Positions 22,196 to 28,276 of a stretch of 55,000 nucleotides of DNA are shown in pieces. Numbering within the stretch: position 1 is the stretch's first letter; each line of letters opens with the position of its first letter. The stretch lies in assembly GCA_002753135.1 (NCBI GenBank), contig PDZV01000026.1, forward strand, positions 1-55,000, read 5' to 3'. This DNA comes from Magnetococcales bacterium WMHbinv6 (lineage in GTDB: Bacteria; Pseudomonadota; Magnetococcia; Magnetococcales; Magnetaquicoccaceae). The notes beneath the pieces were generated by a model. That model did not search any database. It was not told where the DNA came from and worked only from the letters and a program-made list of their open reading frames with translations. Position numbers and translations under genes: made by a program.

Positions 22196-22242
22196 CTGGA
22201 GACGGGATCGAATCTTGTTATAATACATTGATTTTAATGCAG
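22196..22242 (+). repeat. Degenerate distal att of the remnant element
   Basis: GGGATCGAATCTTGTTATAA with flanks resembles the att at 22889-22937 (GGAATCGAATCTTGTTGTAT), including the following TTGAT...GCAG stretch. The tRNA-like part is eroded. Confidence 0.65.
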
Positions 22243-22371
22243 TATGAGGCGAAAATTGAAATTGCCAAAACTGAGACCATCAAATGGATGATCGGCCTTG
22301 CTTTGGCGCAACTGGCCATGATGGCAGGCATCTTGATGACACTGCTTCGGGTGTTGCCCGGTGGACACTGA
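22242..22371 (+). pseudogene. 3' fragment of a DUF1640-like gene
   Basis: DNA from GAGGCGAAAATTGAAATTGC to the stop and about 10 bases beyond is nearly identical to 23307-23440 (one Met/Ile-type change per about 40 residues seen). The 5' part of the gene is missing and replaced by unrelated att-flank sequence. Confidence 0.85.
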
Positions 22372-22495
22372 AAGAGACGTGACAGGTTTCATGCCCTTGG
22401 CCAGCGTTCGGCCCGACAAACCCCTGCATTCGTACCAGGAAGCGTACAACTCTGCCCCGGCCAACTGCTCCGGGGTTCTTGCTACTCCAGCCTGG

Positions 22496-22750
22496 TCACT
22501 TCTCCGCTGCCGGTCGAAGCTGGCCATCAACCAAGGTATATGATGTACCGCTCGGATCAACGTACACGGCGGGCATCTCTGGTGCCACTGGCGGTACACT
22601 TGCCTGGACCGTGACCGATGGCCTTGGCAGGTACTCCGGCTTCCGAGCCTGAAGCATGGCCAGCAGGAGGGTGTCTGAAAATTTGCGAACAGAGCCACAC
22701 GGTTCCCCCTGGAAGAAAACAGGCTCAAGCCAACCATCAACTCCTCGCGA
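22496..22750 (-). pseudogene. C-terminal fragment of a TerS-like gene
   Basis: Encodes KFSDTLLLAMLQARKPEY, then PAVYVDPSGTSYTLVDGQLRP, aligning with the C terminus of the complete TerS-like protein at 23518-24018 at roughly half identity with the tail almost identical. The frame runs without a start into the 132-bp repeat, showing a deletion junction. Confidence 0.82.
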
Positions 22751-22758
22751 ATGCGCCG

Positions 22759-22906
22759 CTGGCTGACAACAGGACTGGATGACGCTTAACGACAGCAAAA
22801 CGGCATAAAAAAACCCGTAAACTGTGAATTTACGGGTATTTATAACGCTTAGCGACTCTAAAAAAAAGCCGCAGAAAATCAAGTTGGTGCCAGAGATGGA
22901 ATCGAA
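22759..22906. repeat. 148-bp direct repeat: element end plus att (left copy)
   Basis: Bases 22759-22890 are identical to 28075-28206. Then, after a one-C deletion, CAGAGATGGAATCGAA continues the match to 28223 inside tRNA-Phe. It includes a copy of the tRNA-Phe terminator hairpin (22813-22837). Confidence 0.97.
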
Positions 22907-22957
22907 TCTTGTTGTATTATATTGATATTGTTGCAGTTTTTTTATTTATTGATATTA

Positions 22958-22982
22958 GATAGCAACAAAAATAGCAACAAAT
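22958..22982 (+). repeat. Distal copy of the 25-bp arm-type repeat
   Basis: Perfectly identical to 28047-28071, starting GATAGCAACAAAAATAGCAA. It lies about 50 bases inside the distal att. Confidence 0.9.
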
Positions 22983-23136
22983 CTGCTCGCTGCCCCTTTT
23001 CCACCCCCTCCAGCCCCCACCGCATGATAGCCGCACTTATAGCCCATTGCCAACGGGTTTCGGTGACAAGCCTGTTGACTTTGCTGCCGGGAAAGGACGA
23101 TGACGGGGCAGATGTCCGCTCATTGCAGGAGAGAGC

Positions 23137-26100: not shown

Positions 26101-26111
26101 GTGGCGCACCC

Positions 26112-26417
26112 CTAAACGCTTGAGATAGCGATAACTTTCCGGGGTCTGCCGCGACCACGGCGGGGGGTGTCGTCTTTGGGCTCGGTGGGTTTGGGTGGGG
26201 TGGTTCGGGTCAGCGCCGGTGCCGGTTGCAGGCTTTCCAGCCAGTTCTGAACGTCCTGAACACGCCACGCTATCCGCCGGGGTCCGAGTTGAACCGGAGC
26301 CGGGAACCCGCCGTTAGAGCGTAGTTCGTCTAACCAGGAACGAGAACCGCCTGTTATTTCAAGAATTTCAGGCTTTGTGAGGAAGATTTTTTCAGAGAGA
26401 AGAGCATGTACTGCCAT
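26112..26417 (-). CDS. AlpA-like regulator/excisionase with AT-hook
   Basis: A winged helix of the MerR/AlpA type is seen at residues about 10-65 (FLTKPEILEITGGSRSWLDE, then FPAPVQLGPRRIAWRVQDVQ, NWLE). A Pro/Thr-rich linker leads to RRGRGRPRK, an AT-hook that binds the minor groove. In P4 and PICIs AlpA activates integrase/excision and early genes on helper-phage induction. It lies between integrase and helicase, as expected. No clear SD is seen before the ATG at 26417. The 101-residue length is longer than typical AlpA because of the AT-hook tail. Confidence 0.84.
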   Translation of the reverse strand: MAVHALLSEKIFLTKPEILEITGGSRSWLDELRSNGGFPAPVQLGPRRIAWRVQDVQNWLESLQPAPALTRTTPPKPTEPKDDTPRRGRGRPRKVIAISSV

Positions 26418-26768
26418 TTAATTTATCCATAAAAAAACAATGAGTTGATTGTTTTCTTTGGTGTGCAAGGCGACGCAACTGAAAAGATGATTACACCCTA
26501 TCATAATTTCGATTGACAAACTGTCCAGATTCGGCGAAAGTACTGGCTATGGTAGATAGCAGGTACTCGAATCGGTTGCATACCGCAGAGTCTCCAGAGT
26601 TTTCCAGGTTCGGAGGTTGCAGCCTTCGGACCTGGGTATTTTCTGTTGAAGGCAACATATCGAACTTTTGACACTCACGCAAGGGGTTTATTGCGTGTTT
26701 TTGTGTTGCGACGTGTTTTTTTGACGATTTCTATTTTTTGCTAATCATTCCAAACAGTTAAGCTGGCG
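26418..26768. other. Regulatory gap between alpA-like and integrase genes
   Basis: No gene is supported in these 351 bases. A short minus-strand frame (26491-26682) has no SD or similarity. The gap holds a strong hairpin at 26604-26635 and should contain the satellite early promoter for the minus-strand alpA-helicase genes. Confidence 0.55.
26604..26635 (+). other. 13-bp RNA hairpin, possible structured RNA
   Basis: CCAGGTTCGGAGG (26604-26616) pairs with CCTTCGGACCTGG (26623-26635) around a 6-base loop. All 13 pairs form on the plus-strand RNA using G-U pairs, whereas the minus-strand RNA would have mismatches. It could be a small antisense-type or operator element of the satellite. Confidence 0.35.
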
Positions 26769-27980
26769 TCAACCGCCTGCCGCATGCAATTGGATGATTT
26801 TTCCCACCCTCACCCCTTCCAAATAATCGGCCCACCATTGCATCATCCGCCGCCTTTCTGGCATGTGCTCCGCGTAATTGTATGCTGCTCGGATCGCGTC
26901 ACGTTCGCCATGGGATAACTGCCGCTCAATAGCGTCACGATTCCATCCGTGTTCATTCAGGATGGTACTGGCCATTGATCGGAAGCCATGCCCGCTCATC
27001 CCCCCCACCTCATACCCCAGCCGACGCAGTGCAGCGTTGACGGTGTTCTCACTCATTGGCCGATCAGCCGACCGCTCGCCAGGGAAAACATACCTGCCGC
27101 TTCCGGTCAACGGTCGCAACTCCTCCAGAACGGCAATCGCCTGGACGGACAACGGCACAATATGCCGCTCTCGCATCTTCATTTTTTCCGGTGGAATCGT
27201 CCATGTGGCAGACTCCGTGTTGATTTCGCTCCACTCCATATGACGCAACTCTCCCGGCCTCACAAATAGCAGAGGTGCCATCCGCAATGCTGCACGACTG
27301 ACATAACTGCCCGCGTACCCGTCAACCGCCCGCAGCAGTTCACCAATGGCTTGCGGGTCGGTGATGGTTGCATGGTGCTTTTGTACTATCGGCGGCAACG
27401 CCCCCAGCAGCGCCGCAGTTGGGTCATTCTCTGCTCTGCCAGTTGCAATGGCATAACGGATCACCTGCCCGATATTCTGCTTTGCCCGGTGAACGGTTTC
27501 AATCACCCCCCGCTCCTCGATCCGTCGCAAGACCGCCAACACATCCTTTGCGGTGATCTCATTGACCGCCTTTGCTCCCAGCCAGGGGAAAACATCCAAC
27601 TCCAGCCGCCGGGTAATCTTGCTGGCGTGGCCATCCGACCACTTCGGGATAAACTTGGCCAGCCACTCACGCGCCACTGATTCAAAACTGTTCTCGGTGC
27701 GGCTCTCGTCCCTCTCCTTGGCGATCTTGCGGTGTTCTCCCGGATCGATACCACGCGCCAGCAGTTGCCGTGCTTCGTCGCGTCGCTCTCTGGCCAGCTT
27801 CAGTGGCACATCAGGATAACTCCCCAGTGCCAGCCGTTTTTGCTTGCCGTCGAACCGGTACGCGAACCTCCAGAGCTTGGACCCTGTCTCTGTAACCAGT
27901 ATGAACAGCCCCCCACTGTCGGCTTTGCTGTATGCTCTGTTTGTCGGCTTTGCGTTGCGAATGTTGCTATCAGTCAGCAT
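26769..27980 (-). CDS. int: P4-type tyrosine integrase
   Basis: Integrates and excises the satellite at the 3' end of tRNA-Phe. It is 403 residues with an N-terminal DUF4102-type arm-binding domain (RAYSKADSGGLFILV, RLALGSYPDVPLKLARERR), a core-binding domain and a catalytic domain. The catalytic residues are seen as Arg in VRPGELRHMEW, Lys in PPEKMKMRE, HxxR in SGHGFRSMA, His in QLSHGE and Tyr in RAAYNYAEH. It lies right beside the tRNA, transcribed away from it, with TTGCTATCG-type repeats between. All catalytic residues are intact, so the element may still be mobile. Confidence 0.95.
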   Translation of the reverse strand: MLTDSNIRNAKPTNRAYSKADSGGLFILVTETGSKLWRFAYRFDGKQKRLALGSYPDVPLKLARERRDEARQLLARGIDPGEHRKIAKERDESRTENSFESVAREWLAKFIPKWSDGHASKITRRLELDVFPWLGAKAVNEITAKDVLAVLRRIEERGVIETVHRAKQNIGQVIRYAIATGRAENDPTAALLGALPPIVQKHHATITDPQAIGELLRAVDGYAGSYVSRAALRMAPLLFVRPGELRHMEWSEINTESATWTIPPEKMKMRERHIVPLSVQAIAVLEELRPLTGSGRYVFPGERSADRPMSENTVNAALRRLGYEVGGMSGHGFRSMASTILNEHGWNRDAIERQLSHGERDAIRAAYNYAEHMPERRRMMQWWADYLEGVRVGKIIQLHAAGG

Positions 27981-27992
27981 GGGAATTCCCTT

Positions 27993-28071
27993 TTTGTTGC
28001 TATCGTTTGCGGTGAATTGTTGCTATCGACCTTCCGAGGGGGTGCCGATAGCAACAAAAATAGCAACAAAT
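27993..28071. promoter_or_regulatory. Integrase arm-type repeat cluster
   Basis: TTGTTGCTATCG occurs twice (about 27994-28005 and 28017-28028), and its inverse CGATAGCAACAAA / ATAGCAACAAA twice (about 28046-28070). The right inverted pair forms a 25-bp sequence also found at 22958-22982 near the distal att. This is the pattern of arm sites bound by lambda/P4-type integrase N domains. The integrase start codon and probably its promoter overlap the cluster, allowing autoregulation. Confidence 0.65.
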
Positions 28072-28074
28072 ATT

Positions 28075-28223
28075 CTGGCTGACAACAGGACTGGATGACG
28101 CTTAACGACAGCAAAACGGCATAAAAAAACCCGTAAACTGTGAATTTACGGGTATTTATAACGCTTAGCGACTCTAAAAAAAAGCCGCAGAAAATCAAGT
28201 TGGTGCCCAGAGATGGAATCGAA
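28075..28223. repeat. 149-bp direct repeat: element end plus att (right copy)
   Basis: Matches 22759-22906 with one extra C. The first 132 bp lie inside the element and the remainder inside the tRNA-Phe 3' end. Confidence 0.97.
28123..28153 (-). terminator. tRNA-Phe terminator carried on the element
   Basis: On the minus strand ACCCGTAAA / TTTACGGGT forms a 9-bp stem with a 7-base loop, followed by a run of seven T. The same hairpin is at 22813-22837 in the remnant copy. Confidence 0.88.
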
Positions 28224-28276
28224 CCAACGACACGAGGATTTTCAGTCCTCTGCTCTACCGACTGAGCTATCTGGGC
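28201..28276 (-). tRNA. tRNA-Phe (GAA)
   Basis: 76 nt with encoded CCA. Acceptor GCCCAGA pairs with TCTGGGC, the D stem is GCTC/GAGC, the anticodon stem GAGGA/TCCTC closes the loop CTGAAAA (anticodon GAA), and the T-loop is TTCGATT. Its 3' end is the integration site of the satellites. Confidence 0.97.

Follow-up and report, generated by a model that had tools for sequence, protein, structure and literature searches.

A 5.3-kb satellite-like element with its own small terminase subunit at a tRNA-Phe gene of a Magnetococcales bacterium

Introduction

Phage-inducible chromosomal islands (PICIs) are satellites of about 12-15 kb (PMC6092414). A smaller size class is formed by the phage-inducible chromosomal minimalist islands (PICMIs), among them PICMI115 of 6,110 bp, which is packaged as a concatemer of eight copies in a full-size capsid; according to their authors, PICMIs carry no terS, lie beside fis, occur once per genome and are complete in Vibrio only (PMC10803314). 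Here we describe an element at the tRNA-Phe gene of Magnetococcales bacterium WMHbinv6. It lies in 55 kb of contig PDZV01000026.1, the whole of which was analysed and is called the window below; the coordinates of the element (unit 1) and of a remnant next to it (unit 2) refer to this window. At 5.3 kb, unit 1 would appear to rank among the smallest virus parasites known. We consider it quite likely that it represents a minimal satellite of PICMI size, which brings its own small terminase subunit (TerS) and is probably carried as concatemers in the full-size particles of an infecting siphophage. A first-pass annotation of the same DNA had already proposed a tandem array of very small PICI-like satellites, and its claims are taken up where the results bear on them.

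Results

Ends of the element

The tRNA gene used as integration target, the attachment (att) cores and the repeats that delimit the two units are as follows.

28201-28276, minus strand: tRNA-Phe (GAA), the integration target (ARAGORN, Rfam RF00005)
28207-28223, minus strand: attL core TTCGATTCCATCTCTGG, within the TψC arm of tRNA-Phe (exact match)
22890-22906, minus strand: second att core TTCGATTCCATCTCTGG, at the border of units 1 and 2 (exact match)
22200-22216, minus strand: degenerate distal att core TTCGATCCCGTCTCCAG, 13 of 17 bases (repeat comparison)
28075-28223, strand not applicable: end repeat of unit 1 on the integrase gene (int) side, 149 bp, 99.3% identical to 22759-22906
22759-22906, strand not applicable: int-side end repeat of degraded unit 2, pairing with 28075-28223
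27962-28068, strand not applicable: five arm-type repeats TAGCAACA, clustered upstream of int (repeat count)
22960-22979, plus strand: two arm-type repeats TAGCAACA, at the distal end of unit 1 (repeat count)

The 17-bp core consists of bases of the TψC arm and acceptor stem of tRNA-Phe, and a search of the window which allowed up to three mismatches returned only the two exact copies. The 149-bp direct repeat comprises the att core together with the int-side end of the element. The motif TAGCAACA was found eight times in the window against 0.87 copies expected by chance. All but one of these copies are placed at the ends of unit 1, where they are probably the arm sites of the integrase. Because the core copies, the direct repeat and TAGCAACA mark both ends, the boundaries of the unit were taken as real. 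The length of unit 1 between its two cores is 5,317 bp. Directly beyond it lies unit 2, a 0.7-kb remnant that extends to the worn third core. What is left of this second unit is its int-side end repeat, to which the C-terminal half of a TerS and that of a DUF1640 protein are joined. The arrangement proposed earlier, a unit between tRNA-Phe and the core copy with a second, degraded unit beyond that copy, was thereby borne out, and the array could be followed to position 22200. An Rfam scan gave no RNA match besides tRNA-Phe.

Gene content

The genes were identified by Pfam and PHROGs profile matches. Read from the tRNA on the minus strand, unit 1 carries int, an AlpA gene, a D5-type helicase gene, a small open reading frame (ORF98) and terS, followed by a convergent DUF1640 gene.

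26769-27980, minus strand: tyrosine integrase, 403 amino acids (PF13356, PF22022, PF00589; R, HxxR, H and Y residues conserved)
26112-26417, minus strand: AlpA-family regulator/excisionase, 101 amino acids (PF05930, E 7e-8; PHROG 66)
24619-26268, minus strand: D5-type replicative helicase, 549 amino acids, start may be 26100 (PF08706 (D5_N), PF19263; PHROG 6088, E 2e-138; Walker A present)
24512-24615, strand not applicable: origin-like site, an inverted iteron pair 3' of the replication gene, rep (repeat analysis)
24328-24451, minus strand: conserved non-coding leader, common to the elements on contigs C68 and C12 of the same genome (DNA comparison)
24015-24311, minus strand: ORF98, upstream of terS, no recognised relatives (no Pfam, PHROGs or PADLOC match)
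23518-24018, minus strand: TerS, 166 amino acids (PHROG 4044, E 1.8e-40; Sf6 gp1 profile match; model; fold search; tree)
23137-23430, plus strand: CCDC90/DUF1640-like coiled-coil membrane protein, 97 amino acids, distal-end cargo (PF07798, E 4e-10)
22505-22780, minus strand: unit 2 remnant, C-terminal half of TerS (sequence match)
22231-22371, plus strand: unit 2 remnant, C-terminal half of the DUF1640 protein (sequence match)

No structural or lytic phage gene, and no capsid, portal or large terminase (TerL) gene, was found by Pfam and PHROGs among all open reading frames of 22890-28223. The element was likewise devoid of recognisable capsid-remodelling genes, in agreement with the earlier remark that capsid interference genes were not visible, and the small genes gave no PADLOC match to defence genes. 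The genes int, alpA and terS are under purifying selection, with ratios of non-synonymous to synonymous substitution (dN/dS) of about 0.12-0.17, the value for int being about 0.12 against its orthologue in a sister species (G021).

The DUF1640-like gene had been put forward as a possible helper-interaction gene. It was rejected as the likeliest candidate for this role, as ten CCDC90/DUF1640-like genes are scattered over the genome and the majority have no terS near them, even though such genes recur at the distal ends of islands. Several of the ten copies lie near tRNA genes, and in sister species a gene of this kind recurs at the distal end of islands with int, AlpA and rep, for instance on contig C397 of genome G024.

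The terminase protein

The sequence family, the predicted fold and the position of homologues beside TerL in phages together identify the 166-residue protein, formerly annotated as TerS-like, as a member of a genuine small-terminase family, which would be expected to oligomerise and to bind a packaging site (pac) and TerL. Besides the PHROG 4044 assignment (terminase small subunit), a profile of 54 members matched Sf6 gp1 in the PDB (6e-5). The AlphaFold2 model had a mean predicted local distance difference test score of 84.6, and its best viral structural match was TerS of Pseudomonas phage Ab18 (E 1.9e-10); the PDB match of best probability was again Sf6 gp1, at 2.8 Å over 71 columns, although its E-value does not reach significance by itself. 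A structural comparison had been suggested earlier as a way to tell a terminase from a plain transcription factor, and its result favours TerS. The window protein shares about 50% identity with the PHROG 4044 TerS of the Ab18/RcRudolph type over 57% of its length. In Ab18 and RcRudolph, and in many further viral contigs, the homologous genes have terL and portal genes as immediate or near neighbours, whereas terS of the present element stands alone. In a phylogenetic tree the Magnetococcales proteins grouped in a single clade, outside which all 18 TerL-linked phage TerS were placed (support 94/90), with a single change compared with 8.5 in shuffles; one unclassified Planctomycetota entry fell within the Magnetococcales clade.

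Related islands

Relatives were found in Candidatus Magnetaquicoccus inordinatus UR-1, to whose genus the window host belongs, and in metagenome-assembled genomes of Magnetococcales. A survey of 48 genomes of the class found TerS in 7, of which five belong to the window's genus. The earlier claim that this lineage has a family of very small satellite-like elements was supported. The sister species YD0425bin7 (G021) carries an orthologous element (int 86%, AlpA 85%, D5 63% and TerS 51% identical) at tRNA-Phe, with the same flanking genes as in the window and the tRNA gene on the adjoining contig end. Its att cores at 7882, 9419 and 9993 delimit three units in tandem. Between terS and the distal att, the G021 element (contig C88, 5918-7619) also has an internal duplication of about 0.8 kb with repeated small open reading frames, which is absent from the window. 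UR-1 retains int and DUF1640 remnants at the flank that carries the window element, and has islands with terS at tRNA-Ser and tRNA-Pro.

Three further islands with terS occur in the window genome, at tRNA-Lys(CTT), tRNA-Lys(TTT) and tRNA-Arg(CCT), and their replication protein is unrelated to that of the window. The tRNA-Lys(CTT) island (contig C65, 27099-35562) is about 7.1 kb long, with a 763-amino-acid Rep and a 93-bp att repeat, and is adjoined by a remnant with an integrase N-terminus, making a second tandem array in this genome; the C12 and C68 islands end at contig ends. The first-pass annotation had seen tandem accumulation at one tRNA. Tandem units at tRNA-Phe are real, but a single tRNA proved too narrow, the sites of this family in the genus being Phe, Lys(CTT), Lys(TTT), Arg(CCT), Ser and Pro. 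A trait of PICIs is an att site that prophages never occupy; integrases, of whichever element type, adjoin tRNA-Phe in G022 and G024. No clean empty site was shown; tRNA-Phe of G023 has no adjacent integrase, but its flank differs from that of the window, and in G020 the matching flank holds remnants. A DUF1640 gene lies 400 bp downstream of the G023 tRNA, and this locus may be a nearly empty site or the trace of an old element.

Blocks of int, a helix-turn-helix (HTH) gene, a primase gene and terS without terL were also seen in a Rhodocyclaceae genome (L176), on a Chloroflexi contig adjoining tRNA-Ser (L194) and on two IMG/VR contigs (L053 and L054). No att repeats were found for the Rhodocyclaceae block, for L053 or for the look-alikes at tRNA-Ser of G020. 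Judging from these gene orders, the design may be wider than Magnetococcales.

Replication genes and origins

At least four kinds of replication gene occur in the islands: a D5 helicase, a TOPRIM primase adjoining a D5 helicase or an AAA ATPase, a long primase-family/AAA_25 protein, and DUF3987. The Rep of the C65 island is of the long kind, having an AAA_25 domain and matches to primase-family PHROGs. The window element and the C68 island have TerS proteins of 88% identity but unrelated replication genes, and the DNA common to them comprises little beyond terS (window 23474-24028, 84%) and the leader at 24328-24451. This leader, just ahead of ORF98 and present in the C12 island as well, is a candidate promoter or pac site.

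Directly 3' of the window rep lies a perfect 17-bp iteron pair in opposite orientation (24512-24528 and 24599-24615) with a spacer of 43% GC. Iterons exceeded all 200 shuffles in five of seven islands. C68 falls outside this set because its copies lie on one strand, but it has six repeats spaced 9 bp apart, and in the DUF3987 island the iterons were no better than shuffles. Most islands have, by these repeat patterns, a predicted iteron-type origin 3' of rep. The origins of Staphylococcus aureus pathogenicity islands (SaPIs), with iterons adjoining rep, have the same layout.

Unit 1 had been described as intact. Its int, AlpA, helicase, TerS and DUF1640 genes were confirmed, but no primase was found anywhere in the element, and because of this the word is too strong and priming from the host or a helper would be needed. 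The N-terminus of the window D5 protein contains short stretches resembling positions 48-68 (E 6e-4) and 379-391 (E 0.07) of the C65-type Rep, which suggests that a deletion may have removed its primase part. Some satellites rely on the replication proteins of their helper.

Search for a helper phage

A search for a host prophage with a matching TerL had been suggested, and no prophage that could be the helper was detected. Searches of the genome for Phage_portal and for the broad TerL family PHROG 2 gave no match, while positive controls worked; the Ab18 TerL used as query, for which there was no control, also found nothing in this genome. At tRNA-Glu on C65 (53371-69641, L117) there is a prophage-like early region with an integrase 61% identical to that of the window, a CI-like repressor, and recombination, helicase and methyltransferase-like genes. 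Since no helper prophage was detected, a helper that infects from outside is the likelier one. Ab18, RcRudolph and other phages that have been isolated carry the nearest named TerS homologues; these phages are virulent, and the most economical guess is an infecting phage, possibly a virulent one.

Discussion

On the satellite reading, the integrase would recombine the 17-bp tRNA-Phe core, with AlpA acting as regulator or excisionase upon infection by the helper. The D5 helicase would then replicate the excised circle from the iteron origin 3' of rep, primed by the host or the helper. The satellite TerS would load this DNA onto the large terminase of the helper, and a headful of tandem copies would fill an ordinary full-size capsid; by analogy with the eight copies of PICMI115, about ten copies of the 5.3-kb unit could be expected per headful. 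The injected circle would re-integrate at tRNA-Phe, and repeated arrivals with deletion could give rise to tandem remnants.

Several points weigh against this. In the sister element of G021 a TOPRIM primase is encoded separately; the D5 protein of the window copy stands without one, and the copy may be replication-defective for this reason. The genome consists of 80 contigs and is 96% complete, so a helper prophage might have escaped detection, and the partial prophage-like region on C65 runs off its contig before any structural gene. Finally, we infer the helper, the excised circle and the particle from an element known here by its sequence. The missing primase could also be accommodated within the satellite reading, if the element were immobile and fixed at this locus in this strain and the mobile members were the islands on C65, C12 or C68, of which the first has the long primase-family Rep and a 93-bp att repeat. 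We regard this as doubtful, as int, alpA and terS are intact and constrained, an iteron origin is present, and replication proteins can be borrowed from helpers.

The islands could instead be decayed prophages, in which int, AlpA, rep and TerS were retained by chance from full temperate phages. The larger early region at tRNA-Glu, with its related integrase, and the evident decay of unit 2 would fit such an origin. However, the same four-part set without a structural gene recurs at several tRNAs, in several species and with different replication genes, the G021 orthologue has equal content, the constraint on int, alpA and terS is strong, and the satellite TerS form a clade of their own; prophage decay is consequently improbable. 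Even less credible is an integrative island or plasmid-like element that is never packaged, with the supposed TerS serving as an ordinary HTH regulator. The protein does have an N-terminal HTH, and its match to Pfam Sf6_terminase lies under the curated cut-off, but its strongest conservation falls after the HTH, at residues 80-122, and PHROGs, fold and the neighbourhood of its homologues point to TerS; the regulator was rejected on the fold and on this conservation.

Beyond the satellite at tRNA-Phe, a more general scheme may be offered tentatively. The islands could form a lineage-wide class of satellites that share only an exchangeable terS cassette: int, tRNA site, iterons and rep would be freely interchangeable, while one TerS clade, confined to satellites and long diverged from phage TerS, would be kept and moved between islands. 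Hijacking would then consist of the satellite's own TerS acting on the helper TerL, in less than 5.4 kb, which is below the smallest satellite with characterised activity, and the helpers would be virulent siphophages of magnetotactic cocci.

If the satellite reading is correct, phage satellites occur in magnetotactic Magnetococcales; no open-access paper joining "magnetotactic" with "phage satellite" was found. There would also be a second way for satellites to become minimal: PICMIs are small and have no packaging gene, while the present elements are equally small and have kept TerS alone. The presence of several islands in a genome, their tandem arrays and the sharing of one TerS lineage by unrelated replicons would amount to a natural experiment on what a minimal satellite needs, and this lineage would provide a sequence handle for finding the phages of these bacteria.

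Among known satellites, capsid-forming PICIs have capsid, portal and TerL genes of their own, all of which the element lacks. With P4-like satellites it shares an AlpA/Vis-type regulator, a helicase/primase replication protein and integration at a tRNA gene; unlike them, it has its own TerS and no recognised homologue of sid, psu or delta. The likeness to PICIs (SaPIs and Gram-negative PICIs) proposed by the first-pass annotation stands for the conserved order of integrase, regulator and replication module and for the absence of structural and lytic genes, and some PICIs encode TerS as well. It does not extend to size, PICIs being two to three times larger than 5,317 bp and usually equipped with interference or capsid genes. 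In content and size the element is closest to the PICMIs, with the same size class, a core of int, alpA and a replication gene, no capsid-remodelling genes and little besides; the co-located int, alpA and primase genes that define PICMIs are seen in the G021 orthologue, while the window copy has a helicase without primase. Unlike PICMIs, elements of this type possess terS, use tRNA sites such as tRNA-Phe instead of fis, occur as several islands per genome and in tandem arrays, and reside in Magnetococcales. By analogy, the element, known here from its genes, would work like a satellite of the PICI/PICMI type and is best filed outside both classes.

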